Assembly: GCA_008330645.1 (NCBI GenBank)
Contig: VLTN01000007.1
Location: 124,001-188,000 of the forward strand
Source of the DNA: Cafeteria roenbergensis
Lineage: Eukaryota > Sar > Bigyra > Bicosoecida > Cafeteriaceae
Direction: 5' to 3'
DNA: 64,000 nt
This document shows, one piece after another, positions 17,132 to 49,411 of the stretch (positions are counted from its first letter, which is position 1; every line of letters begins with the position of its first letter). The notes below the pieces were generated by a model. That model saw only the letters and a program-made list of their open reading frames with translations. It searched no databases and was not told the origin of the DNA. The translations under genes were made by a program, and so were the position numbers.

Positions 17132-17475
17132 GCCGCAACCACAAGCGCGGGCCAAGGCCACCGCTGCGCGCACAATTGCACGACGCCCCGAGCCCGCACG
17201 AACAGCCGCCCCACAGCGGGCGCGTACCTGGCGCCCACGGGCTTTCGGGCCGGCCCGCTGCCTTGAAGGCCCTGCCTGCCGATTGCGGGGCGTGCTCCGC
17301 ATCGCGGGAGCAAAACTCTGCTCGGGTGCGGGCAGAGCTGGGGCTGCAACTCTGCTGATGACTCTGGAGCGGGCTGTGGGGCGGCCGACGAGGCAATGCA
17401 GTGGCTTGCTGCACAGCTCGCACGCCACCCGGGCAGGCGCGGCCGCCCCTCCCGCGCCGGCGCAGCGCTGCCACG
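17132..17475. other. divergent promoter region
   Basis: This 344-bp gap separates the start codons of the WD40-like gene (-) and UPF1 (+), so both promoters must lie here or overlap the genes. I find no TATA box or clear repeat. Confidence 0.5.
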
Positions 17476-20400
17476 ATGGAAGACCGCGCGTCGGACTTTG
17501 GGGACGCGGATTCGGTCGGTGTGGCGGAGGGAGACGCCTCCTCATTGGCCGGAGGCGAGAGCCCGGTGGCTGACGAAGGTGGCATCGCGGCGCGCAGCCC
17601 CGAGGCGGCCGTTCCAGGCGCGGCCGCGGCCGCCGTCCCGGCAAGTCTGGCTCTGGGCGCGCCGCTCGACGCTGCCGGCCGTGCGGGTGGCATGACTATG
17701 CCGTCGGCGTCAGGAGAGGCCGGCGGCGGCACCGGCGAGCAGCTTCACGACTTGCTTGCGGCCGGGCTGCGAGGGCAGGAGGAGGACGACTCGGCGGGCG
17801 AGGGCGGCGACGAGGAGGCCATCGACGATGGCCGCGACGAGGGGCTGTGCGAGGACGAAGACGCCGGCGGTTCGGGTGATGGCGAGGGCGAAGAAATGGG
17901 GCCGTACGACCCGGCCAGTCTCCCGGAGGAGCACTGCCAGTTCTGTGGCGTGCACGACCCCCGCTGCCTGGTGCAGTGCGTGCGCACCAAGAAGTGGTTT
18001 TGCAACTCCCGGCTGGGCAGCGGCGGCCGCGGGGGCTCGTGCATCGTGATCCACCTCGTCAAGGCGCGCCTGCGAGAGGCCGAGCCGCACCCGCGCTCGC
18101 CCGTCGGCGGCGTGCCGTTCAAGTGCCACAGCTGCGGCACGCGCAACATCTTCGTGCTCGGCTTGCTGCCGGCCAAGCTGGTGGCCGCCATGGCGGTGGT
18201 CTGCCGCGTCTGCGTGACCAGCCGCGGACCGTCGCTCACGGCGCTCGACTGGGACGTGTCGCGCTGGGAATCGCTCATCCGCGAGCGCGTCATCCGGCAG
18301 GAGCTGGTGCCCCCCGCGCCCCCCGAGGCCCGCCTTCGCATGTGGCGGCCCACGCAGCGGCAGCTTCTGGCGCTTGAGGAGCTGTGGCGCGAGAACGCTG
18401 ACGCCTCGCTCCACGACCTGCTGGCGGCGGGGGAGGGCGGCCTGGCGGTCACGGACGCCCCCGGCGACGTCCTGCTGCGGTACGAGGACGCCTACCACTA
18501 CCAAAACGTGCTGGCGCCGCTGGTAGAGCTCGAGGCCTCGGAGGACCGCCGCCTCAAGGAGGGCCGCCGCCGGGAGGACCTGGAGGTCACCTGGGACAAG
18601 GCCCCCCAGAGCGGCAGGGACGTCCTTCGCTTCCGCTTCCTGGCCGGGGAGGAGGCGGGGCACCTCCTGGAGGGCGACGAGCTCGTTGCCAGCCTGCCCG
18701 CCGGCCGGTCAGAGCGCTGCGGCTTCCGCGCCTGGGAGGATAAGGGCGCGGTCCGCACCGCCTCGGACGGCTCCGTGCTCCTGGAGCTCGAGGGCAGCAG
18801 CAGCCCCGCCCCCACCGACGTGCGAAGCGGCTTCGACGTGCGGTTCGTGTGGCGAGACACCACCTTCGCGCGGATGCAGGCCGCCCTCCGCCAGTTCGCG
18901 CTGGTGGAGCAGGCGGTGTCGGCAGAGCTGCGCAATGCCCTCCTCGGCATCGCGCCCCCGCCACCCCCCGCGCCCGGCGCGTTCCCCCCGGTGTACCGCG
19001 TGGACGGCATGCCGATGCTGAACGGGCCGCAGGTGGCGGCGGTGCGCACGGCGCTGGCGCAGCCCCTCACGCTGATCCAGGGTCCCCCCGGCACGGGCAA
19101 GACAGTGACGTCTGCCATGATCGTGTGGCACCTCGTGCGGCAGGGCCGGCTGGACCAGGAGGCCGAGCAAGCGGCCATGGACGCTCGTCTGCGCAGCAGG
19201 AGCGCCAAGGGGGGCAGGGCCAGGAGCCTCCGCATGCAGGCGCAGCTGCGGGCGCCTCGGCGCCGCGTGCTTGTCGCAGCCCCGTCCAACGTTGCGGCCG
19301 ACAACCTGGCCTCGCGCATCGCCGCGGCAGGCGTGCGCGTGGTGCGAGTGCTGGCCCGCTCGCGCGAGCAGGTGGGCACCACCGTGGAGGAGCTGGCGCT
19401 GCACAAGCTGGCGCTGACGATTGACTGCCCGCGCGTGGGGACCAACATCGACAAGCTCGCCTCGCTTGCCAGCCGCCGCGCGGCGGAGCCCGGCAGCCTG
19501 AGCGACGCGGAGGAGCGCACGTTCGGCAAGCTGCTCCGCGCGGGGGAGCGGGCCGTGCTCGAGGAGGCGGAGGCCGTCTGCGTCACGTGCGTCGGGGCCG
19601 GCGACCCGCGGCTCAAGTCGATGCGCTTCTGGGCGCTGCTGCTCGACGAGGCGACGCAGGCCACCGAGCCCGAGGCCATCATCCCCACCGTGCTGGGCTG
19701 CCGCCGTCTCGTGCTGGTGGGGGACCACTGCCAGCTCGGCCCCGTGGTGCAGTCCAAGCCGGCGTCCACCGCGGGCCTGACCCAGTCCCTGTTCGAGCGC
19801 CTCATTTACCTGGGAGTGCAGCCGATCCGCCTGCGCGTGCAGTACCGCATGCACCCCACCCTGGCCGAGTTCCCGTCCGACACCTTCTACGAGGGCGCCC
19901 TGCAGAACGGCGTCAGCGTGGCGGACCGCGTCGGCGCGCACGACGCCGCCATCAGCTGGCCCGTGGTCGGGCAGCCGCGCGCCTTCCTCACCTGCACGGC
20001 CCCCGAGGAGCTCTCCTCGTCCGGGACGTCGTACCTCAACCGCGGCGAGGCGGCGGCCGCGGACCGCGTCGTCACTCGCCTGCTTCGCGCCGGCGTGGAC
20101 CCCTTCCGCATCGGCATCATCACCCCGTACGAAGGCCAACGCGTCCACCTGGAGCAGATGCTGGCGGCGGGGCACGGCCAGCTCCCCACGGACCGGTACG
20201 CCGGCCTCGAGATCGCCTCGGTGGACAGCTTCCAGGGCCGCGAGAAGGACTACATCGTCGTGTCCTGCGTGCGCTCCAACGAGCGCCAGGGCCTCGGCTT
20301 CCTCGCCGACCCTCGCCGGCTCAACGTGACGCTCACCCGCGCCCGCCTCGGCCTCGTCATCGTGGGGAACCCCCGCGTGCTGGCCGGCGACGTCCTCTGG

Positions 20401-22467
20401 AACTGCCTCCTGAACCACTTCCAGGCGCGAGGCTGCCTCTTCGAGGGAAGCTTCGAGGCGGCGCGCCCGACCACGCTCAAGCTCCCAGCGCCGCGCCGCT
20501 GGGTCAACCCCCGCTACCGCCTGCTGCTCCAGTCCATCGCCACCCCGGACACCGCCGCGGCCGGCGCCCCCCCCGGCGGCCAGGACCCCTCCGCCTTCGC
20601 CAGGCTCGGCGTATTTGCCGCCTCGGCCGGGGCCGTGCCCGGCGCCTCCGACGCTGGCTCGCACGCCTTTGACGTGTCCAAGCTGCCCCCCTCCGCCCGC
20701 TCGATGGTGCTGGCTGCAGCTGCGCACGCCGCAGAGGCGGGGGCCTTCTCGTCGCCCTTCGGCGCGCACGCTGCCGCGGACGGCGACCGCGCTGCACCCT
20801 ACGGCGGGAGGGGCGCCGCGGAGCGCCCCTACTCCGGAGCCTACGACGGCGCCGGCTCTGGCCCGGAGGGCGGGGTCACGCAGGCCGGCGCGCCGTCCGG
20901 GGCGGGCGGAGAGGTTGCCTCGGCCGCGGCCGCCGCCGCAGCAGCAGCAGCTGCCGCGCGCGCAACTGCGGGATCGTCCGAGGCCGCGGAGGCCCTCGCG
21001 AGGGAGCGGGGGGACACAGACGCGGACGCCGCTCGCGCCCGCCTCGCCGACGCGCAGGCAGCCTCTGCCACGGCGTCGCAGGGTCTGCCCGCGTTCGGGG
21101 TGCCAAGCGGGGCTGAGCGCCTCACCGGCTACGGCGGCCCCTCCACGGGCGCGCCCCTCCAGCCCGGCGCCAACGACGCCATGGCGTTCATGGCCGCGGG
21201 CGGGGACGGGACGGGAGGCTTCGGGTTCACGGGGAACCCGTACGCCAGCTACTCGGTGGCAGAGCAGGACTACGCGCACGGCGAAGCCAGCAGCCACCGC
21301 GACGACGACGCGGCCACGGTGCTGTCGTCAGTGGTGGGCTCTGCCTACGGAACCGGCGGCTACGGCGGCGCGGGCGGCTACGGCGGCGCGGGCGGCGGAA
21401 TCGTCTCGAGCGGCGCGTCGGCCATCACTGGCGGGGCGTCGTCCGTCGTGGGGCGGGGAGCCATGGCCGGCCGGCGAAGGGCGGACGAGGGCGACTCAGC
21501 GTCGGTGGCTGCTGGCGACTCGTTCGGCCGCGGCGGGGGCGGCATCGACGAGGCGTCGTCCGTCGTGGCGTCGTCGGTGGTGGGCGAGCGCGACGCCGCA
21601 GCCCTCATGATGGCAGCCATGGCGGCGGGCAGGCGCGGGGGGGGCGGGCAAGGCGCCGGCTCCGGCAGCGGCTCTGGCAGCGGCTCCGGCAGGGTCATGC
21701 GAGGCACCCGCGGCATGCGCCGGCGCACTGACGCTGGGGACAGCGCAAGCGACGTCGGCGGCAGCGCGGAGTCGGAGGCCGGGGTGGCCCTGTCCACCGT
21801 GGGAGGCGAGAGCATCGCGCAAGGGTCGCTCGTTGCGGGGTCCATCACCGCCGGGTCGCTTGCGCCAATGGCCTCGCGCCCGGTCGGCACTCGCGGAGCT
21901 GGCGGCCGCGCGCGGCCCGCCTACCCATCTCGGCTGGGATTCGACCCGCAGGGCCTTCACCGCCCTGCGCTCTCGCCCGAGGAGGCGGGGCTGCCGGCGT
22001 CAGAGGCGGAGCGCAGGGCGCTGCAGGCGCACGTCGGCGAGGGGGCAGCGCTGGCGGAGGCAGCGCTCGCACCAGGCCACGGGGGGGGCAACGATGGCAG
22101 CAGCGGCTCTGGAGTCGGCCGAGGACGGGACCGGGGCCGCGGGCGAGGGCGTGAGCGCGGGCGAGGGCGAGGCCGGGGTCGCGGCCAGGCGACTCGCGGC
22201 GCTGGCGAGGGCGAGGGCGCGACGCCGGCAGCGGATGATGCCGTCGCAGCGGTTGGCACGCGGGGCGCGCCGAGCGCCGATGCGGCACCCTCGAGGGGGC
22301 GCGGGCGCGGCCGGGGCCGCGGCCGGGGCCGGGGGAGGGGCAGAGGCAGCGGAGCCGGCGGCGCCACGTCCTCGGGCGGGTCCACGCCCCGGGCGCATGG
22401 CAGGGGCCGCGGAGGCAAGCCCCGCGGCGGAGGCAGGGGCGGCGCCGCTCAGTCGGGGGGGAGCTGA
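17476..22467 (+). CDS. UPF1: UPF1 RNA helicase (nonsense-mediated decay)
   Basis: This is the ATP-dependent superfamily-1 helicase that drives nonsense-mediated mRNA decay. The frame from ATG 17476 gives 1,663 residues with no intron. After an acidic N-terminus comes the Cys/His-rich UPF2-binding domain (about 150-250), with CQFCGVHDPRCLVQC and CHSCGTRN. Then follow the 1B region, the P-loop QGPPGTGKT (about 535), the Walker B box LLDEATQA (about 722), GDHCQLGPVV, the VDSFQGREKDYI motif V and TRARLGLVIVG motif VI, which ends near 970. The C-terminal tail of nearly 700 residues is unusually long (human UPF1 is about 1,120 in all). It is Ala/Ser/Gly-rich and finishes in about 110 residues dominated by RG/GRGRG repeats, which may bind RNA. 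Matches across all helicase motifs make the call secure. Confidence 0.96.
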   Translation: MEDRASDFGDADSVGVAEGDASSLAGGESPVADEGGIAARSPEAAVPGAAAAAVPASLALGAPLDAAGRAGGMTMPSASGEAGGGTGEQLHDLLAAGLRGQEEDDSAGEGGDEEAIDDGRDEGLCEDEDAGGSGDGEGEEMGPYDPASLPEEHCQFCGVHDPRCLVQCVRTKKWFCNSRLGSGGRGGSCIVIHLVKARLREAEPHPRSPVGGVPFKCHSCGTRNIFVLGLLPAKLVAAMAVVCRVCVTSRGPSLTALDWDVSRWESLIRERVIRQELVPPAPPEARLRMWRPTQRQLLALEELWRENADASLHDLLAAGEGGLAVTDAPGDVLLRYEDAYHYQNVLAPLVELEASEDRRLKEGRRREDLEVTWDKAPQSGRDVLRFRFLAGEEAGHLLEGDELVASLPAGRSERCGFRAWEDKGAVRTASDGSVLLELEGSSSPAPTDVRSGFDVRFVWRDTTFARMQAALRQFALVEQAVSAELRNALLGIAPPPPPAPGAFPPVYRVDGMPMLNGPQVAAVRTALAQPLTLIQGPPGTGKTVTSAMIVWHLVRQGRLDQEAEQAAMDARLRSRSAKGGRARSLRMQAQLRAPRRRVLVAAPSNVAADNLASRIAAAGVRVVRVLARSREQVGTTVEELALHKLALTIDCPRVGTNIDKLASLASRRAAEPGSLSDAEERTFGKLLRAGERAVLEEAEAVCVTCVGAGDPRLKSMRFWALLLDEATQATEPEAIIPTVLGCRRLVLVGDHCQLGPVVQSKPASTAGLTQSLFERLIYLGVQPIRLRVQYRMHPTLAEFPSDTFYEGALQNGVSVADRVGAHDAAISWPVVGQPRAFLTCTAPEELSSSGTSYLNRGEAAAADRVVTRLLRAGVDPFRIGIITPYEGQRVHLEQMLAAGHGQLPTDRYAGLEIASVDSFQGREKDYIVVSCVRSNERQGLGFLADPRRLNVTLTRARLGLVIVGNPRVLAGDVLWNCLLNHFQARGCLFEGSFEAARPTTLKLPAPRRWVNPRYRLLLQSIATPDTAAAGAPPGGQDPSAFARLGVFAASAGAVPGASDAGSHAFDVSKLPPSARSMVLAAAAHAAEAGAFSSPFGAHAAADGDRAAPYGGRGAAERPYSGAYDGAGSGPEGGVTQAGAPSGAGGEVASAAAAAAAAAAAARATAGSSEAAEALARERGDTDADAARARLADAQAASATASQGLPAFGVPSGAERLTGYGGPSTGAPLQPGANDAMAFMAAGGDGTGGFGFTGNPYASYSVAEQDYAHGEASSHRDDDAATVLSSVVGSAYGTGGYGGAGGYGGAGGGIVSSGASAITGGASSVVGRGAMAGRRRADEGDSASVAAGDSFGRGGGGIDEASSVVASSVVGERDAAALMMAAMAAGRRGGGGQGAGSGSGSGSGSGRVMRGTRGMRRRTDAGDSASDVGGSAESEAGVALSTVGGESIAQGSLVAGSITAGSLAPMASRPVGTRGAGGRARPAYPSRLGFDPQGLHRPALSPEEAGLPASEAERRALQAHVGEGAALAEAALAPGHGGGNDGSSGSGVGRGRDRGRGRGRERGRGRGRGRGQATRGAGEGEGATPAADDAVAAVGTRGAPSADAAPSRGRGRGRGRGRGRGRGRGSGAGGATSSGGSTPRAHGRGRGGKPRGGGRGGAAQSGGS

Positions 22468-26077: not shown

Positions 26078-28248
26078 CTAGGAAGGCGCGGCGCCCTTGA
26101 CCCCCACCTTGGCAAGCTCGGCCCGGAACCGAACGAACAGGTCGGCGAACGCGAGCAGGTCGCCGCGACCGCGCTGCAGCTCAACGAGCGTGAGCAGGTC
26201 TGAGAGCGGCGTGACCACGATGCGGAGCGAGACCGCGCCGTGTCGGGTGACCACCTCGCCGCTGACGGCAGACTCCTCGTCCGAGGCGGCTGCGCCGAGC
26301 CGCGCAAACGCCTTGCTTGCGGCCGCAATGATGTCCGGCAGGGGCGTCTCTGAGAGGAACTGCGGCTGCGCGAGCTGCAAGCCAGCGTCCACGGTCTTGA
26401 GCAGCCGGTTCAGCGCGAGTCCCCCGAACATGTTCACCACGTCGAAGGCGGTGGCGCTGGAACTGCCGCCGTCCTCGTCCTCGCCGTCGTCCAGCGCGCC
26501 CTCCTTCACAGCGCCCTCCATGTCCGCCTTGCTCACCCCAGCGCCGCTCCCGGGTGCTGGCCGGGCAGCGCTTGACGCGCCTGCGGCCGCGGCCGCGGCC
26601 GTCGTCGCTGCCGGCTTGCGCACGGCGGAGGCCGCGGCGGAGGCGCCGGCTGCCGCGGCAGCGCCAGCGCCAGCGGCTGCCCCGGCGCCCGACCTGGACC
26701 CCGCAGCGGCGCCCTCCTCCTCCGTCCTCGGCGTGGCGGCCGGCGCGGTGCGCAGGCGCATGGGCCGGTAGCCGTCGGCGCCCACGAACCAGGGGTGGGC
26801 CATGATCTGCTCCACCGTGTACCGGCGGGACACGTCCACCACGATGATGCGCGAGATGAGGTCGCGCGCCTCCCCAGTGATCCAGGGCGGGAAGTCGTAC
26901 GTCCCGCGCTGGATGACCGCGAAGAGCTGCGACAGCGTCTGCTCGTCGAACGGGAGGAACCCAGCCATCATCACGTACAGGATCACGCCGCAGGACCACA
27001 CGTCGGCCATGGAGCCGTCGTAGCCGGTCTCGGCAAGGACTTCGGGCGCGACGTAGTTGGGCGTGCCGCAAGTTGTGTGCAGCAGCGACTTTCGGCCTTC
27101 CCCTTCATCGCCGCCGTACACGGCCGAGAGCCCAAAGTCCGAGATCTTGAGCGTGCCCCGCGAGTCAAGGAGCAGGTTTTCCGGCTTCAGGTCGCGGTGG
27201 GCCACGCCCATGGAGTGGCAGTAGCGAATGCCCTCGATCAACTGCCGAAAGAAGAAGCGCGCCTGCGCCTCAGTGAAGCGCTGAGACTCCAGAATCTTCT
27301 GGAACAGCTCCCCGCCCGTGATGAGCTCCAGCACGATGAAGATCTTGGAGCGCGACGCCAGCACCTCGTACAGCTTGACCACGTTGGGGTGGCGAACCAT
27401 CTTCATGATGGAGATCTCCTTCTTCATCTGCGCGCCCATGTTTTGGCGCTTGATCTTTTCCTTGTCGATGATCTTGATGGCGACCTTCTGGTTCGTGGTG
27501 GTGTCGCGCGCCCACTTCACCCTGCGCGGCGCGGACGGGTCGGGGCGCGGGGGCGGGCGAGGAGCGGCTTGGAAGCGGGCGGGCGGCGCTTCTGCAGGGC
27601 AACCGCGCGGATCGGCAGTCGCTCTGCTGCGCGCCCGCGGGCCGCGCTCGCTGCGGCCGCGCGGCGCCGCCGCGGGCGGGCCGGTTCGGGACGCGACGGC
27701 GCGACCCGAGTCGCCCGGCAGCCGCCGCAGCAGCGGCGGGAGGCAGGGGAGGGGGGCGCCGGCTGCCCTTGTGGCAGCGGGCTCGACGAGGCGCAACGCC
27801 TTGCAGAAACGGCCCGGCCTTTGCTCACTTGGCAAATGTCCCTTCGCCGAGGGTCTTCCCGACCTCGTACCTGCGGGCGCGCAACAGCGGCAGCCGAACA
27901 GTCGCACTCGGGTGGCACGCCGGCGCTGTGAGGCAGGGGGCTGACGTGGGCTGTGGAGGGGATGGGGGGAGGGAGGGAATGCCGGGCAGCCAGGCTGTTC
28001 AACGGGGCGGCCCGGAAGAGGTCGCCCGGCGGCCAGGCCCCGCAGGCGCGCCTGCCTCACTTTCCCACCTGCGGGGAGGGCGGGGCGAGGAATCGCACAT
28101 CTGGAGGTCGCGGGCGCCCGGCAAGCGGGAAGCGCAGGAGCCGGCCGCCGCGCAGGGGCGCATTGGACGGGGCCGGGTGCGCTCGCTGAGCAACAGGGCG
28201 GCGGCCTCGGGCGGCCGGCGGGCGGCCTGCACTCACATTGCGGGGCAT
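26078..28248 (-). CDS. CIPK/SnRK3-like Ser/Thr kinase with NAF-type tail
   Basis: Four exons give 501 residues: 28237-28248, an 8-nt microexon 28061-28068, 27829-27870 and 26078-27521. The first three rebuild the missing kinase start: MPRN, VGK, YEVGKTLGEGTFAK, then VKWARDTT. Kinase landmarks are the Gly loop GEGTFAKV, VAIKII (Lys), HRDLKPEN, DFGLS and CGTPNYVAPEV, with a threonine activation-loop site. After a long Ala-rich linker, TAFDVVNMFGGLALNRLL (about 380) resembles the NAF motif that binds calcineurin-B-like Ca2+ sensors, and the last 100 residues match the phosphatase-interaction/KA1-like part of CIPKs. Plain SNF1/AMPK alpha is the alternative. No CBL sensor is in the window. Phases are 0, 2 and 2; introns are 168, 190 and 307 bp. 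Confidence 0.86.
28061..28068 (-). other. 8-nucleotide microexon of the CIPK-like gene
   Basis: Eight bases read GTGGGAAA on the minus strand. They are preceded by CCCCGCAG and followed by GTGAGG, the acceptor and donor forms used throughout this window. They enter in phase 0 and leave in phase 2, supplying Val, Gly and two bases of Lys. Joined to the neighbouring exons they give VGKYEVGKTLGEG, the normal opening of CIPK kinase domains. Confidence 0.78.
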
Positions 28249-35231: not shown

Positions 35232-38200
35232 ATGGCCGCGGCCCAGGGCGGCATGGGCCGAGGCACCACGGAACTCCCGGAGTTCCTGACCAAGGACCCG
35301 GAGTGGCACGGCCCCGCTTGGGCCATGTCGCGGCTGCACAGCCAGTCGAGCCGCGATCGCTTGAAGCTGGACATCGTCGACACGATCATCCTCACGGGGG
35401 ACAAGCCTGTCTGGCTGTTCACGGGCAAGGCTGGGGTCGTGCTGAGAAAGTCTGAGCCCAAGTCCACGCCCGGCAAGGTGGTGGACATGCTGCAGCGCTT
35501 CGCGGTCGACCCGCTGGCCGCCAAAACCAAGCCGTTGCCGCAACCCGAGACCGCGCGGTCGGCCTCGTCGGCCAAGGACGGCCACGCAGGCATGGGCCTT
35601 GACGACCCTACAGACCGGTTCTCTTCGTCCAAGCCCCGAGCGCAGCGCAGCACCGCCAAGTCCTCGTCCGCTTTGGTGCCGGAAGAGGGCAGCGAGTTCG
35701 GCTACATCGAGTACTCCGCCGCAGGGGATGGCGACCCGCACCTCATTAGCCGCGCGGACGGCTATGAGCGCCTCCTCAAGGGTGGCTTGCCCGCCTGCGC
35801 CATGGTCCAGCCGTACCTGCTGCCGAAGCACATCCGCCGGGCCCACGCAAACTTTCGGCACCGCTGGAGGTGAGCGAGGCCTGCGCTGATTCCGGATGCC
35901 GCCCGCTTTTGATGCCCTCGGGCCCTGTTGCCACTGCGAAAGGGGGTTCGTTGGGCCCCTCCAGCTCGGCGGCAGGCGTGGCTGTCGCCCAGTCTCCGCG
36001 GCATCCGCTCCTTGCCCCAAGCGCACCGCTGCCGCCATGGGCACCGAGCCCGCCACGCCCCCCGTCCCCATCCCCACCCTGCCCCGCTCGCAGCATGTAC
36101 ACGGCCACGCCGGGCGCTCCTCCCACGTCGCACTGCTTTCAGCTGCACGAGCCGCCTCCCGCCCAGTCGAGCAGCGCGGCCGCCGCGTCTGCTGCGAGCT
36201 CGGAGCTTTCCGCCGCGCTCAGCCGCCACCGCTCCCTGAACGAGCGCATGGAGGACATGACCAGGCAGATCTGCCGGTACATCGCCTCCCGCTGCGGGGG
36301 GCGCGTCACGGAGCTGGTGGCTGACTATCACCTGGACACGCATGACGCCCTTCGGCTCGCGCTCGTCACCTCTGTGGCGGTCGTACCGAGCCCCAACCCC
36401 GCTCCTGCGCGGTCAAAGCGCGCCAACGCAGCGTCTTTGTCGTCGTCGTCATCCGCGGCAGCCACAGCGGGGGCGGCCGCCTTCCCCAGCGCCGGCCCCG
36501 CAGCCGCCGGCAGCCCTGCCAGCCCGCAGTGGGCGCAGCTGACCGCGCGCATGGGCAAGGCGCAGGCCGAGGCCGTCTCGCTTGCTCGGGAGATCCTGGG
36601 CGACGGCGAGGCAGCCCGCCTCGCGCGCCGCCTCGCCCCCAGTGACGAGGGCCCGGCGCCTTCGTCCCGGGCCAAGCAGCCGGCCACCACCATGTCAGAC
36701 CTGCTGCGGGAGCGCGCCGAGGCGGGAACCATGCCGGCTGGGGGGGCCGCCTCTGCTTCGCGCGGAGACAGCCACGGCCGCCGCCGCCGCCGCCGTGGGG
36801 GGACGAGCGGCCACGACGGGTCCGGCGCCGGCGCGTCGTCCTCGGGCTACGACTCGACGTCCTCGGCCTCCGTGGCACTCCCGTCAGCCGTGGGCGGCGC
36901 GGCAGAGCTTGAAGGGGACTCCACGTGGCAGCTCTCCGCCAACGACCTTGCAGAGCTGCGTTCCTTCAAGCGACCGCCCCCAGGCGTGGAGCTCGCCGTC
37001 TCGGCTGCCCTCCTGCTCCTTGTCGGGCGGACGGCGCAGTGGCCGCGCGCGCGCCGTGTGCTCTCGTCCTCCGGCCCGGGAGGCGGCCTTCTCGGCGCGA
37101 TGGCCAGGTTCGACCCAGACCGCTGCCCCGCCGACCGCATAGCGGCCCTCCTCCCGCTGGTCAACGGCGTGGCCTTCCAGCAGGAGGCCATGGCGCCGGT
37201 GTCCATGGCCGCAGCGCGCCTGGCATCCTGGGTCGGCGCCACTGTCGCTGCGATTGACGAAGCGCGCAAGGCAGGAGTCAGGCCCTCGGAGTACCTGGCA
37301 GCAGAGCCCATCCATCCGGAGGCGTCGCAGACGTCGCTGCTCGAGGTGAGCGACCCCGACGTGCGCGGAAGTGGCTACCAGCAGCAGCACGGCCAGCGGC
37401 TGGCGGGGCTGCGGCCGGCCAAGGGCCACGCCTGGGCGTCGACAAGCTCGCTGCCGGACTTGCAGCCCTCCCCGGTCAAGGAGGTGGGGCGTCGTCGGCG
37501 AGCGGACGTGGGCAGCACGGAGCTCGACCGCGACGACGACCGGGACAGCCGCTCCGTGCGCGCGGCTGCCGGTGGGGGGGCCGAGGGCGAGGAGGACGAG
37601 GAGGACGAGGAGGAGGGCTTCGGCACGCGTGTTGGAGCGTCTGGCCTGTCGGCGGAAGTCGAGGCACCCCTGCATAGACCGGTGGCAAGGCGCGCCGCGC
37701 AGCCCTCTGCCGCTCCTGCATCGGGCAAGAGCGTTCGAAGGCTGTCGTCCGCTGAGTCGGCCAGGCGGCTGGCTAGGGCGGAGGCTGCGGCGGCCCCTGC
37801 GCCGGGCCTGAGCCAGTCGGTGCGCTCCCTTCCTCGCGCAGGTGCGGCGTCAGGCTCGCAAGGCGCCATCAGAGGGGGCACCTGGGCGGGAGGCGCCCTG
37901 CCCGGGTCGGGAGCCGGTGCGGCCCGGCGCTCGGCCAAGGGCAGGGGCAGAGGCAAGGGCGGCCCAGTGGCGTCGTGGGGGCAGCCGGTGTCGCTGCCCC
38001 CAGCTGTCGCCCGTGCCGGCCTCCCGGCCATCTCGCAATCGGGCCAGCCAGGGCTCCAGGCGAGGCAGGAGCCCGCCGAGGCCGCTGCGGGGGCTGCCGG
38101 CACAGTTGACGATGCCGACTGGCTGATACAGCCCGGGTCCGGCGGCGGCCTCGTCGTTGAGACGGACCGCCACTCGTACGCTTGCAGCGGGCCTGGTCTC

Positions 38201-41200
38201 GTGGGGGCCACGCTCTCGTGGGTGCTGGTGGGCGAGGCTGACTCGTCCCGCCGGGCTCACGACTTCGTTGTGCTGCCGGACATCTTCACGACGGGCGATG
38301 CGCTGCTGCCGCTGCTGCGGCCGGTGGCGCTGCGGACCCGCTCGAGGTTCCTCGTCGTCAACTTGCCCGGGCAGGCCCACACCCGCTTCCCAGGGGACGA
38401 TGCCGAGGCGGCCACCGGCCGCACCCGCCGCGCCTCGGACGGCCCGCCGCTGTCCAACACCTTCCACGCAGCCGCGCTGGACGAGCTGCTCGGGCACTTG
38501 GACAGCACGGGTGCGATTGAGGTGACTGCCAGGCGGGCGGACAGCAATGCCGCTGCGGCACAGAGGGCCAGGGGCGCTGCTGCCACGGCCGCCGGCGGCC
38601 TGTACGTGTCGGGCGCCGTGCCGGGCTCGCGGCCGCGTCGCTGGCACCTGCTGGGATTCGGCAGCGGCGGCGCCGCGGCGCTCGCATTCGCGTGCAACCA
38701 CGCCTCCGGCCCCTACGCAGGCAGTCTGGCTTCTGTTGTGACGCTGAATGCCTTTGCTCGGACTGACTCCCAGATGTCCGCGGTGATGCACGCGTCGGAA
38801 AACGTCTTCGCCTGCTTCCCTGCCGAGCGGCGGGACCTTGCAGACAGCTACTTCAGCCGGTTCCTATTCTCCGACGACTACCTGCGCAAGGTCACGCCGG
38901 AGGGCGCGCAGCGGCGCCTGGCGGCCGCGGACAACCCCATCACGCCGGGAGGACGCGCTGCTCTGTGCCGAGGCGTGCTGGCGAGCGAGGACCTGCGGCC
39001 CCGCCTGCCGTCCGCGCCCGTCCCCATCATCGCCGTGCAGTCCACGGAGGGCGCCCTCGTGACGGCAACCTCGGCGGAGGAGGTGACTGCGGGCCGCGAT
39101 GTGCGCCACGTCACGGCGCCGGACCCGAACGAGGCGCCCACCGCCGGGAAGGCACTTCGCGGCGTGGCCCTGCCGCGGGCCACGCCGCAGCTGCTTCCGC
39201 CCGGGGTCATGCCGGCGCTCTCACACGTCCTCTCGACGCGGGGGGGGCGCGCCCTCGTCGTGTGGGTGGCTGCTGGCCACGAGCTGCGCCTCGAGACGCC
39301 GGCCGGAATCCTGCAGCTGCTCACTGTGATGGCGGACCCCGAGTCGGCCGTTGAGGAGGCGGATGCAAGGCAGGACGAAGTCGCCATTGCCGCAGCGCGC
39401 GGCGGGCGGGCAGATGCCGCTGCTGCTGCGGCTGCCTCCGTCGCGCCGTTGGGCCAGTCCGCGTTTGACATCGACTGGGACACGGAGCGGGCGGGCGCTA
39501 GCGGCGTGGTTCACCCCCTCAAGATGCTCAACCCCTCCCAGCGCCGGGACAAAAAGGACCAGCGCCGCCTTCGCATGGCCCTGTCGGGCGCGATCGACTC
39601 GGACACCTCGTCGGGCGCCCCCGTGTCTGAGGCAAGCGCCGCCGCCGCCGCAGCGGCAGCAGCGACAGCGGGATCCCTCCCACCGCAGAGCAAGCCTGCA
39701 CCAGTGCGCTTCGGCAGCTCCTCGCTGTCACGCGCGACCGCCACGGGCGCCGTTATGGGGGCCACTGTGCAGCGGGGGAGCAAGTCAGACTTGGCTGTCT
39801 CGACTGCCCTGTGGAATGGCGGTGCCGTCAAGGCCGCGACTGGCTCTGCAGCAGACACTGTGATGGCGTCGACGGCCCCCTCTGCGGGCGGTGCCACCAG
39901 CGACGCCCTGGCCCGCCTCCGGAAGGAGCAGGAGGAACGCATGGCCAAGTGGCGGGCAGAGGAGGAGGCTCGGTTCGCCGCTCTCAAGGAGGACCTCTGG
40001 CAGAGTCAGCGCGACCGAGAGCGAGAGACTGGCCGCACCAGGCAGGAGGCTGCGGCTAGCTCAAGGCAGGCGGAGCAGGCCACGCAGCGAGCCGGGCAGG
40101 CGGCCTCGGCGGCAGCGGCAGCCATTCCTGTGACCGACGACGCGGTGCAGCGAGGCATGGATGCCCTGGGCGTCTCCGCCACGGCGGCGCGGGGCGGCGA
40201 CAGCAAGGAAGCGCTCCCTTCGTCCTTCGGGGCCGCCCACTCCGCGGCTGCTCCGGCCGAGTCTGTCAGCTCTTTGCTTGCCAAATCGACTCTGCACTCG
40301 AGCTTGCGGCCAGAGCCAGCAACTGAGACGCTGCCGATGAGCACGCTGACGGAGCAAGGGTACGCTGCTGTGCAGGCAGAGCTCGAAGAGGCCCGCCGCG
40401 AGGAGGAGGAGGCCGCAGCACTCGCCAAGCGGCGCGCTGAGGAGGAGGCATTCGTGGCTCGCCTGCCAGCCATGAACGCCGCGTCGGGAACCATCCAGAG
40501 GGTCTGGCGCGGCCATTTGGGGAGACGGGCCGCGCACTCGCAGAGGATCCTGCTCAAGATGAAGTCGGCCGAGATGAAGGCCGTGCAGCTAATTCAGGTG
40601 AGTGAAGGTGGCGACGCAGCCCGCACGGCCGGGGAAGGCTTGGTTCGTTCCCAGCAAGGTGCCGACTGCGAACACCTGTCTGATGCCTCGGGGCAGACAA
40701 CGCCCACCCGCGAGATTGGTGTCGCCCGACAGGACCAGCAAGAGGTCGACAGTGCTGCTGCCGACATCACCGACGCTGAGCCAGCGGGTGACGCCGAGCC
40801 AGCGGGTGACGCCGAGCCAGCGGGTGACGCCGAGCCAGCGGGTGACGCCGAGCCCGCGGGTGACGCCGAGCCAGCGGGTGACGCCGAGCCCGCGGGTGAC
40901 GCCGAGCCAGCGGGTGACGCCGAGCCCGCGGGTGACGCCGAGCCAGCGGGTGACGCCGAGCCCGCGGGTGACGCCGAGCCAGCGGGTGACGCCGAGCCAG
41001 CGGGTGACGCCGAGCCAGCGGGTGACGCCGAGCCCGCGGGTGACGCCGAGCCAGCGGGTGACGCCGAGCCCGCGGGTGACGCCGAGCCCGCGGGTGACGC
41101 CGAGCCCGCGGGTGACGCCGAGCCAGCCGGTGACGCCGAGCCAGCGGGTGACGCCGAGCCAGCGGGTGACGCCGAGCCAGCGGGTGACGCCGAGCCAGCG

Positions 41201-44200
41201 GGTGACGCCGAGCCAGCGGGTGACGCCGAGCCAGCGGGTGACGCCGAGCCAGCGGGTGACGCCGAGCCAGCGGGTGACGCCGAGCGAGCCAGCGGGTGAC
41301 GCCGAGCCAGCGGTGGACGCCGAGCCAGCGGGTGACGCCGAGCCAGCGGGTGACGCCGAGCCCGCGGGTGACGCCGAGCCCGCGGGTGACGCCGAGCCCG
41401 CGGGTGACGCCGAGCCAGCCGGTGACGCCGAGCCAGCGGGTGACGCCGAGCCAGCGGGTGACGCCGAGCCAGCGGGTGGTGAGCGCCGAGCCAGCGGGTG
41501 ACGCCGAGCCAGCGGGTGACGCCGAGCCCGCGGGTGACGCCGAGCCAGCGGGTGACGCCGAGCCAGCGGGTGACGCCGAGCCAGCGGGTGACGCCGAGCC
41601 AGCGGGTGACGCCGAGCCAGCGGGTGACGCCGAGCCAGCGGGTGACGCCGAGCCAGCGGGTGACGCCGAGCCAGCGGGTGACGCCGAGCCAGCCGGTGAC
41701 GCCGAGCCAGCCGGTGACGCCGAGCCAGCGGGTGACGCCGAGCCAACCGGTGACGCCGAGCCAGCCGGTGACGCCGAGCCAGCGGGTGACGCCGAGCCAG
41801 CGGGTGACGCCGAGCCAGCGGGTGACGCCGAGCCAGCCGGTGACGCCGAGCCAGCGGGTGACGCCGAGCCAGCGGGTGACGCCGAGCCAGCGGGTGACGC
41901 CGAGCCAGCGGGTGACGCCGAGCCCGCCGGTGACGCCGAGCCAGCGGGTGACGCCGAGCCAGCGGGTGACGCCGAGCCAGCGGGTGACGCCGAGCCAGCT
42001 GGTGACGCCGAGCCAGCGGGTGACGCCGAGCCAGCGGGTGACGCCGAGCCAGCCGGTGACGCCGAGCCAGCGGGTGACGCCGAGCCAGCGGGTGACGCCG
42101 AGCCAGCGGGTGACGCCGAGCCAGCGGGTGACGCCGAGCCCGCCGGTGACGCCGAGCCAGCGGGTGACGCCGAGCCAGCGGGTGACGCCGAGCCAGCGGG
42201 TGACGCCGAGCCAGCGGGTGACGCCGAGCCAGCGGGTGACGCCGAGCCAGCGGGTGAACTGGAGCCAGACTACGATGTCGGAGACGTGGCCGTCGAGGCT
42301 TAGTCACTGGTGTTCGGGTGGCTGGTGTCCAGGATCGCTCAAGCGCCCAAGCGATCTCTCAACCAGCTCGCTGCCGGGCACGCCCCACTTCCGTACCGTG
42401 GTACCACCGCTGCCCGCTTGGTCCCGGCACGATTTGGGTGCGGCCCGGGCGGCGCGGCAGGCCGCGTGGACGGGAGTGTAGCGTGTGGCAGCGAGCTTGG
42501 TTGAGTGGCGCACCTGGTTGACGCATCCAGCTTGGCCCGGCCGGAAAGCCCGCGCCTCGGCGGGCCTGGGCTCTGGCGCGGGCTTTCGGCCCAAAACCCC
42601 GGTCCGGCCAGCAGGCGAGGTCGGAGCGCGTCCGGCAGGCAGCTGACGCTACCCTTCCTTCGCAGGGGATGTAGAGCCGTCCGACTCCAATTGGAGTCCC
42701 TTGTTGCATCGCCTTTTCACTCTGCACGCTGCCACTCACGATGCATCCCACCAGGCGCGCAGCGCGATGGCTTTCCACGTTTTGACTCGTTGTTGTTGTT
42801 GCACCTTTCCTGATTCCACTTGCAGGCCCACATTAGGGGGCGGTTCGGCAGGCTGCGTGCGCACAAGGCCCGGATGAAGCGACTCCGCGAGATCTTTATG
42901 GCGGATGCCGCTTCTCGCATTCAGCGCGCCTTTCGCCGGTACCTTGCCACATGCGCTGCCGAGGTGCTGCGCTACCAAGGCGCAGCCCGAGACGTCCAGC
43001 GCGTGTTTCGCGGCCACATGGGAAGGCTGTACGCATCTGCGGTGCGGTCTCGAAAGTCGAGGCTGGAGCGGCAGACCAAAGCCGCCGTGCGGATCCAGGC
43101 ATGCTGGAAGCGCCACCGCGTGATGCAGGGCTACCGCGAGATCCAGGTATTGCGCATCGGGGCAGTGACCATCCAGCGGACATGGAGGGGCTACTTGGAC
43201 AGGCGGTTTGTCACGGACTTGCGGGAGTGGGAGTCAAAGGAATCAGGCCCCGGACGGCTCGCGGTTGGCGTCCGGATCATGCAGCGGGAGTCGGCCGCGC
43301 TCGTGCAGTTTCAGCGCGACAGCACTGAGTCGGCTCGTGCGCACGCGCGCTGCATCAACCGAGCGGCCCACGCCAAGCGACGCCTGCGGCGAGTCAATGC
43401 CGAGCTGCGGCGGATTCGTGCCACCAAGTTGGGGCATGAGCGCGAAGCGGCCAAGCTTGACGAGGTATCTCGCGACCGCAACGCGCTGGAGGCCGCACTG
43501 AAGGGCATGGAGGAGGCCTCGACGGCGGGAAACCACGAGCGACGGCCTCGAATCGACCTGAAGCTGCTGCAGCAGCTGGCAGGGATGCACGGAGTCCGCA
43601 TGCCCGGCGGGCTCGAGGCCGAGACAAAGGCGGAGGCCGCCACCAGTTCCGACGGCGAGTCGGACGACAGCGCTGCGCGCCGAAGGCGAAACATGCGCGC
43701 CCGAAGGAAGCGGCAGCGAGCCAAGGCCGCCATGGCTGAAGCGGACCAGCGCGAGCGCATGCATCTGGCGCAGCGTGTGCAAGCGCGCGCAGAGGAGCGC
43801 GAGAACACCATGCTGGCCGTGCGGCTCCGGCGGGCTGAAATCGGGCGGGCCGTGCTGGAAGACGAGCGCAGAGAGCGCGCGCTCGCGGAGCACGCGGACT
43901 CCTTGAGCCAGGCCGCAGCAGCGCTGGAGCGCCAGGCTGAGGCGCTCACTGCACGGCGCCGGAAGCGGCAGCGTGAGCTCAGCCACATTGTGGACCGCAT
44001 CACCATGCTCGCGGACCGGCAGACCAAGGAGTTCAACGCCATCCAAGACCGCACGCGCAGCCAGCGACAGGCCGAGGTCATGAAGCGCATCGCTGAGTTG
44101 TCCGACCAGGCTCAGCGAGCGGTCAAGGCGGAGGCGGAGCGCAGAGCCGACGCGTTTGCCGGCGACGCGGAGCGCGCCCTCACAAGCTTCATCCAGCCAG

Positions 44201-46293
44201 CTGCGGCGGCGTTCCTCTCCAGCGTGACCACCATCGGCGCTATCGAGGACGGCACTGTGGCGTCGCACGCGCGCGCCCTCGAGTTTCTCACAGGGGGGGC
44301 GGCGGTGCGGGCCACCAGCATGGCGAGCCCGGCGCAGCTTGGCGGGCTGACCAACGCGCAGGCTGCCGTAGCGGGCACAGACGCGGCAATGGTGGCCTTG
44401 GGCTTTCAGCCGCCATCGCTGGAGGACCGCGAGGGCCGACAGTCCCGCCGCAGGCAGCTGCTGCTCGCCGCGACCACCGCGACCCGGGTTTCTGACGCCA
44501 AGGAGGCGGCCGCGGCCTCTGGTGTTTCAGCGCCTGGCGCTGACGGCGCGCTGCCTGCCATCATGGACCGGGCTGTATCGTCGTCCCAGCGGCCCTCCAT
44601 GCAGCTGGTCCCACTGTCTGGCAGCGCCAGCGCAGCGGGCCAGTCGAGTGCGATTCAGCCCCACCGCCGCAGGCGCCGTCGCTACCGCCCCAAGTACCAA
44701 TTCGGCGCCGACCCAAGCACGTCGATGGTGGAATCCAGCGTGGGGACGACCCAGGCGAGTCGGTCGTCCGCGGGCGGCGGCAGGGGCTGGAGCGATGAGG
44801 ACAGCGAGCAAGACGACGGCCTGTCCAAAGATGAGGCCAGCGTGGCCAGGGGCAGGCGCGAGCGCGACGCGGCCAGGAGGCAGCAGTGGCTCAGGACGCG
44901 GGAGCGGAGAAGCGGGGCGGTTGTGGGAGCGGGTGCCCGCGCAAGGAAGGCGGCTGAGGAGGCAGCGAGGCGGGGCGACTCTGCGGACAGCGACGAGGAC
45001 TTCGTGGCCGGCGTGGTCGTGGACGAGCTCGAGGACGAGAGGCAGGAGGCAGAGCGCCTGGCAAAGGAGGCGGGCGGGTCGGTGCCTGACGCGATGGCGC
45101 CCCGTGCCCAGGCGATGAGGCGAGCCCTTGCAATCGGAGCAACAACCAAGCTTGACCTGGCCGCCTCCACCGGGCTGACGCACCAGGAGCGCACCCGCGA
45201 TATAGATTACAGTTTTGGGAAGGGCGCTGTGCGGACGAAACGCCCGCCCAAGCGCTCGGCGTCGCGGTTCCTGCCGACGTCGCTTCGGCAGTTTGCGGTG
45301 CCGGACCTGGCGGCCATCCAACTGCGCAAGGTGGAGGAGGACCGAGCGGCAGCGCTGCTGGCGGAGGCCGAAGCCTCGCGCGAGCGCAAGGCCCTGAGAC
45401 GCATCCGCAAGCTCGCCGACTCGGACGACGACTCCGAGGACACGGACGATGGTCGCGATCTCTCTGAGAAGCGGGGCGGCTCGCTGGCTGCGGCCATCGA
45501 AAACGCAAGAGCAGAGGCGTTCGGAGCAGAGCTCCCTGCCGACGTCCGCAAGTGGACGGTGAAGCACGTGGGAAAGTGGCTGAACGGGATCGGCTTTGGC
45601 CAGTACGCCGCCAACGCTGCCGAAGCGGAGCTCGACGGCATCGCTCTGCTTGAGATGTCGCCGGTGGATATGCGTGACGTCGTGGGCATTGACAACCCCA
45701 AGCACCTGCAGCGGGTGAGTGCTTTCCGGCAGAGGCTGGCCGAGCCGCCTCCCACGTACGTCCGGCCGGGAGGCGACCTCAAGCGCTGGAGAATGGGCCG
45801 CTACGCTGGAGACCCGGTCAAGCCGTGGGTGCCGGAGGAGGCAGGCCGTGCGGAGCGGGGGCCGGAGCTGTCGGACGGGCGCCCGCTTCGGCCCGAGACA
45901 GTGCTGGCTCAAGCCAAGCTGGGCCGCTACGGCCGCGTGGAGGAGGCGCTGGCCGCGGGCCTGCCTCCCGATGTGCTCACCGGCGACGGCCTGGGCAGGG
46001 CCGGACTGCACATGGCTGCGCTCCGGTGCGACCGGCGCATGGCAGCCGTGTTCCTTCGCTACGGCGCAGACGTCAACGCGAAGGACAGGTTCGGAAATAC
46101 GCCGCTGCACTACGCCCAGGCCCTCGAGCCCGACGGTGACATGGTGGCCTTTCTCCTGGACCGCGGCGCCGACGACAGGGCGCGAAACAATCTCGGCAGC
46201 CTTCCGGAGGACCGGCGCCTGGGGCCGGGGGCAGATGCTGGGGCCATCCTGGTGCCTGCGCACCTCCGCAAGCAGGCAGACAAGGCGCCATGA
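35232..46293 (+). CDS. giant multidomain protein: hydrolase-like fold, six IQ motifs, coiled coil, SAM, ankyrin
   Basis: Exons 35232-35869, 36094-40597 and 42826-46293 give 2,869 residues. Intron 1 (224 bp) is phase 2. Intron 2 (2,228 bp) is phase 0 and splits an IQ motif exactly after Ile-Gln: LIQ, then AHIRGRFGRLRAHK. About residues 930-1290 resemble an alpha/beta hydrolase (HDFVVLPDIF, VVNLPGQAHTRFPGDD, LLGFGSGGAAAL, VVWVAAGHE), but the nucleophile elbow is altered, so it is probably inactive. Six IQ-type motifs (about 1675-1850) should bind calmodulin or EF-hand light chains; long charged coiled coils follow. A SAM domain lies at about 2617-2695 (VGKWLNGIGFGQYAANAAEA) and ankyrin-type repeats at the end (TPLHYAQALEPDG). 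A cytoskeletal or flagellar scaffold is a reasonable guess. I know no named orthologue. Confidence 0.8.
40598..42825 (+). other. large intron 2 of the giant gene, mostly minisatellite
   Basis: The intron starts GTGAGT directly after the codon for Gln in an IQ motif and ends in a T-rich tract and TTGCAG before the rest of the motif. At 2,228 bp it is about five times longer than any other intron placed here. It holds about 175 bp of ordinary sequence, a 1.5-kb 18-bp array, and about 570 bp of unique sequence with a perfect 16-bp palindrome at 42683-42698. Confidence 0.85.
40772..42256. repeat. 18-bp minisatellite, about 82 units
   Basis: The unit is GTGACGCCGAGCCAGCGG, repeated for 1,485 bp with a few variant forms (for example CCCGCGG or CCAGCCGG endings). 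Variants recur 216 bp apart: CCAGCCGG at 41831 and 42047, and CCCGCCGG at 41921 and 42137. This shows a 12-unit higher-order duplication. Length changes near 41283-41320 and 41470-41490 are not multiples of three, which argues against coding. All frames stay open only because the unit length is divisible by three and holds no stop codon. Confidence 0.96.
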
Positions 46294-47029
46294 GGTGCGC
46301 ACGGGACAGCGCAGCGGCTGGAGTGGCCGCAGCCGGGACCGATTGCACGCACTGCTTGCTTTTATGATATGACCGTAGGGTCGTTTGGTTGAACCTACGG
46401 GGCAGGTGCGTACCGTTTGGGCGAGGCTCGGGCGGCAGAGCCGCCCGATGACTCTGCCCAGGGGAAAGGGCCATGGGGCCTGCGCCCTGAACCGACACAC
46501 TTGAGGACTCCCTCACCGAGCGCTCGCTCGCCGCCTTCTCGGCTCCCAGCAACGGGTGCGTACGCTCCACCCAACGCAACAGGCGACCTCGTCGCCCTCC
46601 TGTCTGTGCTTGCGCGGTCGGCCGGGCCGCCCCCAAGGACCGCCTCGCTACCCTGAAGCGCCTGGCGGGACGTCCCGAAGCGACGGAGGCTGACCTGTGG
46701 GCCCGGCTCGCGGCCGCCGGCGCGTCGGGTACGGCCACCTCTCTCGCCGAGCTGCTAGGGGGTCTGCCTCGCGTTGGCCGGTCGGATTTTCGAGGCTCTC
46801 CGCGGCGCTGACTCGGCGCCTCCGCGGAGTAATGCGTGAGGAGCGCGCCGTCCCAGCCGACGCGCACACTGGCGCACAGCCGAGCACCAACCGCACACAC
46901 GAGGAACCGTCGGCCGCGGCCACGCCAACGCCACGCGCCTACAACCCCGCCCCGGCGGTCGCGCGGGGACCACGGCGCCGGGACCCCAGCGGGCCCTGAC
47001 CGCATCGGGGGCGCCCACCCGATGGGCGG

Positions 47030-49411
47030 ATGTGCTCCACGACGCGGGCCCGGCCCCTCCGGCTTCGCGCTGCCCCGCCCGGCTGCGCGCGGTCGCTGCC
47101 CCCGGTCGCTCCGGATCCCGCGCCGAAGCCCGGTGCCCTGGGTCGGCGGCGATCCGCCCAAGAGGACGGCCCGCCGGTGGCCCCGCCGGGCAGCACGCCG
47201 GACCCGGAGCCTACGCCCGGCGAATCCCCATGCGGCGAGATGGCCGAGGTGCCTCTGCGGCCTCCGGCCCGTGTGCCGACCACCACTCCATACCGGGCCA
47301 GCCCAGCCGCCGAGCGATACCGCAGTTCGCTGACTACGCCGGCCCCGGTTGTCCCGACACCCACGCAACGGGTCTCGTCCTCGGGGCAGTCGTGGGCGGC
47401 CCCCGGGTCCCCCGCCGTACACTTCCAACGCGCGGCGGCCCTCCTCGCCGCTAATGACATGGACGTCCACTCCGTTCCGCCGGAGGAGCTGAGCACGTGG
47501 CTCGACGAGCTGTCCCGTTCCGGCGTCCTTGCTCCGGCCGTCGACGCGGCGGCGAACGAAGCCGCGTCGTCGGCCGGCGCCCGCCTCGACGGCTCGCCCG
47601 GCACGCTGGGGGACTTCCCCGTCGTGGCTCCGCTCGCCAATCCTGACGTGCCCCGACTCTGCCCTGTCGCGGTCCTGCGGGAGCTCCGGCGCCCGGGTGA
47701 TTCGTCCTGGCATCACGCCTTCGCGTGCGTGCTCCTCGGCGCCCCGGCGGAGCCTTCGCACCCCGTCGCGGCCTTCCAGCCTCGTCCGAACCGCCTGGAC
47801 AACGCCGGCACCACGGACTCTGTCCAGTCGCTACTCCAGCGGGACGCCGACAAGTGGTGGATCGTCCCCGTTCCCCCCGGGGCGTGGGCGCCGCCGCCGA
47901 GCCCCCTCAGCCTTGTCGCGAAGACCAACGGTCGGGGTCGGCTTATCTGCGACGACAGCAGCCGATCCCGTTCGGGGAAGATACGCGGGCCGAACGGCGC
48001 CTGCGACACCAGCCGCCTGCCTTTCCCGGCCACGGTGTCCATCCCGGGGGTGGCGGCTTGGCTGCGTACTGCGCCCAGCCCGGCGCCGGGCCAGTCCGTC
48101 TTCGTCATGTCGTGGGACATCACGACGGCCTTCCGCCGCATCATGCTCTCGGCTCAAGCGCGAGGGGCCGCGTCCGTGCGGTGGGCGGGCCGCACGTACC
48201 GCGTCACCGCCTGCAGCATGGGATCGCGGTGGTCGTCCAGCGCCATGAACGCCATCGTTCACGCGGTGGCTAAGAGCCTCCGCCGCGCGGATGGCAGGGC
48301 CCGCGTCGTGAGCTACTGCGACGACACGCTGGGCTACATGGTCGGCACCAGGGCGGAGGCAGACGCCTTCCGCCTGTCGGTGATCCGCAGATTCTCCGCG
48401 CTGGGGCTCCCAATGGCTGAGGCCAAGTGCCCCCCGCCGGACACCTCGATTCAGTGGATCGGCCTCTCCATCTCAACGGCCGGTCCAGAGGCCACCGTCG
48501 GCTACGCTCCCGCCCTGGCGGAATCCCTCGAGCAGGAACTGGCATCCGTCACGGTCCGCGGGGCCGTGTCGCCCCCTCCCTTGCGGCGCCCACTGGGTCG
48601 CCTTGGCTGGTTGGCGTGCGTCGCTCCGCCGGTCGGGCTCTGGCTACGCCGGCTGCGCCAGGCTCTCTGGGAGGCCGCCTCGGGTGCCCGATTCTCTCGA
48701 GCCGCGGCCTCGGGCGCCGGCCGCCTGCGCAGCCTCTTCGTGCGCAGCGTCTGGCCCGTCTCCGACATGTGCCGCCGGGCGTTCCCCGACAAGTTTCCAG
48801 CCGTCACGCTGATCACAGATGCGTCGACCTCTCGGGGCGGCGCCGTCGCCCTCGCGCCATCGTCGGTGGCCAACGGCGTACTGCACGTCGGCGCGCGGGG
48901 CCGTGGCCTTCTCCCCACGGCGCTCACGGTCGAGTACGACGCCCGCGTGCCGGCGTCCACGAGGTCGGAATTGCTCACGGTCGTGCACGTAGTCCATTCC
49001 ATGGCGGACGCTCTCGCTGGCAAGTCGGTGCGCCTGTTTTCGGACAACATGGCAGCTCTGGCCGCGTCTCGCGGGAAGGCCAGTTCCGCTTCGGCGCACG
49101 CCGACGACCTCGGCGAGGCCCTTGCCGCCCTTCTGCTCGACAACCGTATTTTCTTGGAGGCGTTGCACACACCAGGCGTCGAGAACGAGGCGGCCGACCT
49201 GATCAGCCGCCACAACTGCGCATTCACCAAAGAATTTGCGGCCGGCTCTACCACCTGGGCCGCGGGCCTCCGCCACGCGTGGGAGCGCGTGGCCCCCACA
49301 ATCCGGTCGGCGCGGGTCAATGGCATCATCCTTCGCCCGCGGTGCGAGCGGGTCCGAGCTGGTTCCGCGCGTCCTGACGGCGGCGCAGCAGTCGTTTCGG
49401 CGCGTGCCTGA
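47030..49411 (+). CDS. reverse transcriptase-RNase H polyprotein of the Ngaro-type element
   Basis: This 793-residue frame carries a DIRS-type reverse transcriptase (about residues 240-480) with the SWDITTAFRRI region and the YCDDT core, followed by an RNase H domain (about 590-720) with TDAS and the LLTVVH and DNMAAL blocks. The first 150 residues are Pro-rich and could hold the end of a gag-like part. It overlaps the recombinase frame by a short distance, as is usual in this family. It appears intact. It belongs to the mobile element and has no host function. Confidence 0.85.
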   Translation: MCSTTRARPLRLRAAPPGCARSLPPVAPDPAPKPGALGRRRSAQEDGPPVAPPGSTPDPEPTPGESPCGEMAEVPLRPPARVPTTTPYRASPAAERYRSSLTTPAPVVPTPTQRVSSSGQSWAAPGSPAVHFQRAAALLAANDMDVHSVPPEELSTWLDELSRSGVLAPAVDAAANEAASSAGARLDGSPGTLGDFPVVAPLANPDVPRLCPVAVLRELRRPGDSSWHHAFACVLLGAPAEPSHPVAAFQPRPNRLDNAGTTDSVQSLLQRDADKWWIVPVPPGAWAPPPSPLSLVAKTNGRGRLICDDSSRSRSGKIRGPNGACDTSRLPFPATVSIPGVAAWLRTAPSPAPGQSVFVMSWDITTAFRRIMLSAQARGAASVRWAGRTYRVTACSMGSRWSSSAMNAIVHAVAKSLRRADGRARVVSYCDDTLGYMVGTRAEADAFRLSVIRRFSALGLPMAEAKCPPPDTSIQWIGLSISTAGPEATVGYAPALAESLEQELASVTVRGAVSPPPLRRPLGRLGWLACVAPPVGLWLRRLRQALWEAASGARFSRAAASGAGRLRSLFVRSVWPVSDMCRRAFPDKFPAVTLITDASTSRGGAVALAPSSVANGVLHVGARGRGLLPTALTVEYDARVPASTRSELLTVVHVVHSMADALAGKSVRLFSDNMAALAASRGKASSASAHADDLGEALAALLLDNRIFLEALHTPGVENEAADLISRHNCAFTKEFAAGSTTWAAGLRHAWERVAPTIRSARVNGIILRPRCERVRAGSARPDGGAAVVSARA

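Follow-up and report, generated by a model that had tools for sequence, protein, structure and literature searches.

We analyzed a 64,000-nucleotide window of Cafeteria roenbergensis DNA (contig C7, VLTN01000007.1, positions 124001-188000; 72% GC), taken from an assembly of 36.3 Mb in 167 contigs, and found that a large 18-bp minisatellite with long open frames on both strands is very probably part of an intron. Judged from the DNA sequence, this GT-AG intron of 2,228 bp (window positions 40598-42825, plus strand) would be spliced out to join 40597 to 42826, and the array would give no product. The host gene comprises an upstream coding exon (36095-40597, plus strand), which lies within the open frame 35768-41299 and ends in ...KAVQLIQ, and a downstream coding exon (42826-46293, plus strand), which carries the rest of the second IQ motif, more IQ motifs, a SAM domain and ankyrin repeats as identified with Pfam. 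The preliminary description of this stretch had proposed such an intron, with consensus GTGAGT and GCAG borders and about 82 18-bp units filling most of its length, and its intronic interpretation is supported here by the strengths of the two splice sites, an IQ motif that Pfam finds only after splicing, the uniqueness of this join among the pairs examined and two frame-shifting indels.

Splice sites were compared with those of 96 GT-AG introns called outside the array region, good and doubtful together, by a small gene finder self-trained on the window and 200 kb of contig C1 with a 45-bp minimum intron length and a strong penalty; the consensus is GTGAG at the donor and CGCAG at the acceptor. 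The donor GTGAGT at 40598-40603 (CAG/GTGAGT, plus strand) scores 10.74 bits, more than 93 of the 96 called introns, and is equalled by 10 of 23,986 GT sites under a position weight matrix that included calls in the array region. The acceptor TTGCAG at 42820-42825 (plus strand, followed by G) scores 11.37 bits, above 91 of the 96, and 14 of 31,217 AG sites equal it. Both sites, found exactly where they had been described, fit the consensus of the genome.

Splicing at these sites would restore a continuous domain. On the spliced 40-residue junction, the Pfam IQ profile (PF00612) matches over profile positions 2-17 with an E-value of 0.029 and 14.6 bits, which in so short a piece lies under the 20.3-bit cut-off, and Pfam finds no IQ match on the retained upstream side or on the unspliced downstream side. 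The spliced 191-residue stretch contains four IQ stretches, with a Pfam E-value of 4.4e-16. Only one of 527 GT-AG pairs around the array, namely 40598/42825, yields an IQ motif spanning the junction, and random GT/AG joins do so in 33 of 200,000 cases. An IQ paralogue on contig C39 is too repetitive for the intron to be located by alignment.

The array itself (40772-42257, plus strand), delimited with Tandem Repeats Finder (TRF) and by splitting into units, fills two thirds of 40598-42825. TRF reports one large array of period 18 with 82.1 copies, 95% matches and a score of 2697, that is, head-to-tail units within the 10-100 bp of a minisatellite. The consensus unit GACGCCGAGCCAGCGGGT accounts for 53 units; the rest are variants with CCC (12), GCC (7) or CCC+GCC (2) and a few singles. 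As had been noted, indels shift the frame twice: two 22-bp units on the plus strand, one with a doubled GAGC (41276-41297) and one that holds a GTGAGC (41478-41499), each add 4 bp. The order of the unit types (aaacacacacaaacacccb...) contains recurring blocks, cccba and ac dimers, which suggests multi-unit duplication and fits slippage or exchange. At least 37 exact matches to a dimer of the unit are listed in the 36.3-Mb assembly, all at the array locus, and at least 79 matches, all those listed again at this locus, are obtained with a 27-mer from the array when as many as three mismatches are allowed; no second copy of the region is found among the matches listed in this one assembly. Homology of the 18-bp unit with other units of the genome was considered and rejected, as its best match to 11 other units (12 of 18 positions) is no closer than those of shuffles (P = 0.44).

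Continuing from the upstream exon, frame 0 reads LIQ-VSEGGD...ITDAEPAG through 28 units and ends at a stop at 41297-41299, after the first +4 indel, and the GDAEPA frame of the last array segment ends in ELEPDYDVGDVAVEA with a stop at 42301-42303. On the minus strand all three frames are stop-free across the array, with an open stretch of 569 codons at 40597-42303. The long open frames reported earlier for both strands are therefore real. They are also to be expected, since the 18-mer has a stop in one of its six frames and copying it would open the other five. With two +4 indels, no single frame is kept through the whole array. We propose that a GC-rich minisatellite grew, probably through slippage or unequal exchange, in an ordinary GT-AG intron of an IQ-SAM-ankyrin gene; that the spliceosome would join 40597 to 42826 and so restore the second IQ motif; that the array RNA would be discarded along with the intron; and that its open frames would simply follow from a unit that has a stop in only one frame out of six, in DNA of 72% GC.

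Several observations weigh against an intronic array. The intron, with its 2,228 bp, has twice the length of the longest (1,115 bp) of 51 strong introns, defined by a GTGAG donor and a CAG acceptor, and two longer called introns, of 1,398 and 2,059 bp, have weak donors; without the array it would measure 741 bp and fall within the range of the strong introns, a point in favour of the intronic reading. The last codons of the intron read LQ, so that LQAHIRGRFGR is present in the unspliced sequence as well, and the IQ join is therefore less special than the perfect phase-0 motif of the preliminary description. The self-trained gene finder, with the array in its training set, treated the array as exonic and placed three doubtful introns, a call that skips the indels through two 55-bp introns and relies on a weak donor at 42277; the earlier expectation that a gene finder would take the array as coding was thus borne out. 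The 174 bp (58 codons) between the donor and the array have a codon score of 0.03 against C1 exons, which exceeds the 95th percentile for 33 intron read-throughs (-0.056). Finally, once the incomplete initial stretch and any unit carrying over three mismatches are set aside, the variant types of the array fall 1, 1 and 4 by codon phase (p = 0.10), and 26 of 28 variant cells are at the third position.

This 5' flank was scored in three ways. Against the codons of Pfam-supported open reading frames (ORFs) its score is -0.32, with 5 of the 27 upstream-exon windows falling below it. The score of 0.03 obtained with codons of C1 exons is under all 44 windows of the same gene and, among 717 exon windows, stands at the 12th percentile. 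A frame contrast matched for composition puts 12.7% of 228 intron frames at or above the flank and 18.9% of 719 exon windows at or below it. The three scorings disagree, and the codon composition of the flank does not decide between intron and exon.

These features bear on the possibility that the array encodes an alternative C-terminus. Some transcripts would then retain the intron, the upstream exon running on into VSEGGD... and GDAEPA repeats, and splicing at 40598 would give the other isoform; should both indels be recent or artefacts of the assembly, that frame would run as far as ELEPDYDVGDVAVEA, ending at 42303. The array is indeed in frame with the upstream exon, its variation leans to the third positions of GDAEPA, like the variant types of the seven other arrays described below, and the 58-codon flank is open with a codon score that is high for an intron. 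Set against this are the two frameshifts, a GC content at third codon positions in the flank of 0.655, under all 44 windows of the host gene's own exons, a frame contrast that is not distinctive, the 7 of 33 control introns that are likewise open through 58 codons, and a phase bias that by types reaches only p = 0.10. We consider such an isoform improbable. An equally improbable reading makes the array a coding tail, either former or facultative: retention would add GDAEPA repeats as a C-terminus inside the IQ run, third-position variation would have been kept, and two recent indels would have started to break the frame.

Other arrays of the genome provide a comparison for the phase of variation. 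With the translated flank and the first part of the array as query, at least 56 matches were found in the assembly, from which 12 loci (7 + 5) were taken; all 12 contain an array of period 18 or 36, six-residue periods being overrepresented among these loci because the query biases the choice. Variation phase was tested in seven arrays, five of them at these loci (L036, L038, L039, L040, L041) and two elsewhere (at 29997 in the window and at C1 50622), with L037 showing no variation, L042 to L047 left out and no large noncoding array serving as a negative control. In all seven, variant types peak at the third codon position of the longest ORF, singly with p < 0.05 in three, and a second ORF on the opposite strand is usually in the same phase. 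Counted by cells, six of the seven have a third-position peak, the exception being L039, with 10 of 14 cells in another phase. Indels were tracked in 13 other arrays: all 10 in predicted exons are without net frame change, as are the single array in a predicted intron and one of the two in predicted intergenic DNA; in the other intergenic array the flag concerns nothing but its end, and calls of -6 and -9 are mostly located at array ends. Two small arrays in predicted introns of the C1 sample, 28127-28243 (42-bp unit) and 19722-19789 (21-bp unit), both have periods that are multiples of 3.

Four of the seven arrays lie in ORFs with RCC1 domains (Pfam), namely L036 1532-4101, L038 1937-2722, L040 1819-2245 and L041 1798-2133, in which an 18-bp unit occurs about 19 to 143 times and, translated by eye in the ORF frame, gives Ala/Ser/Pro-rich hexapeptides. 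The intron array shares with these four a period of 18 and a GC-rich composition; their variant types peak at one codon phase, and its own lean to one as well (p = 0.10). It differs from them in that they lie in continuous RCC1 ORFs without net frameshift, whereas its own frame is broken. The phase favoured by the intron array corresponds to third positions of GDAEPA on the plus strand and of SASPAG on the minus strand, and a separate antisense gene, with 40597-42303 of the minus strand encoding SASPAG-type repeats like the Ser/Pro-rich arrays of the RCC1-domain genes, would account for the three open minus frames and for the resemblance of SASPAG to SASPSV and TASPTS of those arrays (units again translated by eye). 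We regard this as very unlikely: the adjoining minus-strand ORF (42362-42832) has no Pfam match, the SASPAG frame of the last segment is directly preceded by a stop, both +4 indels break the frame, and the similarity of the unit to the 11 others is, as described above, at the level of shuffles.

The array is rich in potential donors. It contains 71 GT sites of at least 5 bits, or 48 per kb compared with 4.8 per kb overall. In the plain unit the donor reaches 5.20 bits, higher than 27 of the 96 called donors, and the GTGAGC at 41479-41484 (plus strand) scores 9.14 bits, above 73 of the 96. This strong decoy had been described as a mutated unit; it is present, having arisen along with the second indel and not through a point mutation. 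The top acceptor inside the array scores 0.36 bits, and an intron ending within the array is therefore unlikely. A second strong acceptor is found downstream at 42660-42665 (plus strand; 11.30 bits, above 91 of the 96), the use of which would give LIQGM and a stop, two residues past the junction. Use of the decoy at 41479, or full retention, would give a product that ends 233 residues past the junction. The products of decoy use, retention or the second acceptor would all be truncated and, provided that nonsense-mediated decay operates here in the usual way, would be subject to it. Were the array a facultative coding tail, the 71 weak donors and the strong decoy would tune the rate of intron retention.

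The 3' part of the intron is predicted to form a long RNA hairpin from an inverted repeat at 42357-42506 (plus strand). Folding of 42350-42499 gives a z of -4.18, with none of 200 shuffles equally stable, and a z of -4 or below occurs in 0 of 116 windows of strong introns and in 2 of 80 random windows. A shorter second inverted repeat (42539-42592, plus strand) has 18-nt arms that are 89% complementary, and 42530-42610 folds with a z of -1.77. Six array units fold with a z of +1.5 in the sense and -1.6 in the antisense orientation, and the window 40698-40847, across the 5' edge of the array, folds with a z of -5.2. A DNA search of the assembly with 42304-42825 listed the segment itself as the only match. 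Rfam gave no match at the gathering threshold over the window and three weak matches in 42200-42900, the best of them MIR8622 with 22.9 bits against a cut-off of 197. A strong hairpin after the array, together with an LQAHIRGRFGR that is complete on the downstream side, might suit two genes, the upstream one ending in the array region and the second beginning near 42826. Such an arrangement would leave an excellent donor-acceptor pair unexplained and split the run of IQ motifs, and the unspliced downstream piece has no Pfam IQ match; we give it very little credence.

The spliced host gene, counted from the first in-frame ATG past 36000 (36095, a putative start codon), has 2,656 codons. A Pfam match to MT (dynein stalk) in the upstream exon is barely over the threshold, with 26.7 bits against a cut-off of 24; the protein encoded at 36095-46293 thus brings together an MT match, a run of IQ motifs, a SAM domain and ankyrin repeats. 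Just 3' of the host gene, the ORF 47000-49408 has a weak match to the reverse transcriptase family RVT_1 (E-value 8e-07, 29.4 bits against a cut-off of 29.6), and the ORF 17362-22464 elsewhere in the window carries UPF1 domains. In the C1 sample, two pairs of called introns (L024, 127982-129077, and L026-L027, 149650-150746), about 22 kb apart, have identical splice-site sequences, which suggests a segmental duplication.

Tandem arrays within introns are known elsewhere, and the published cases offer both likenesses and differences. VNTR6-1, a variable number tandem repeat (VNTR) in intron 6 of TERT, has alleles with tens of copies, and its length is linked to TERT isoform splicing and to a G-quadruplex (PMC11830802); the length of an intronic VNTR in ABCA7 is linked to exon 19 skipping (PMC5954066). 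The array described here resembles both in lying within a probable intron and differs in that its unit has only one GGG run per 18 bp. Tandem repeats of two green algae reach their highest density in introns, which form the top two with coding sequence (PMC3887541), the motifs described there being mainly short, in contrast to the 18-bp unit found here. Intronic VNTRs are thus a known kind of element, and the present one is distinctive in mimicking a repeat protein in a genome rich in long repeat-bearing ORFs. The locus provides a clean example of how, at high GC, a nearly stop-free repeat unit can lead a gene finder astray, and it offers a contrast within one genome between arrays held in frame inside ORFs and one released from frame inside a probable intron. 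If the array were retained and translated, it would give a repeat-tailed isoform of an IQ (calmodulin-binding) protein.

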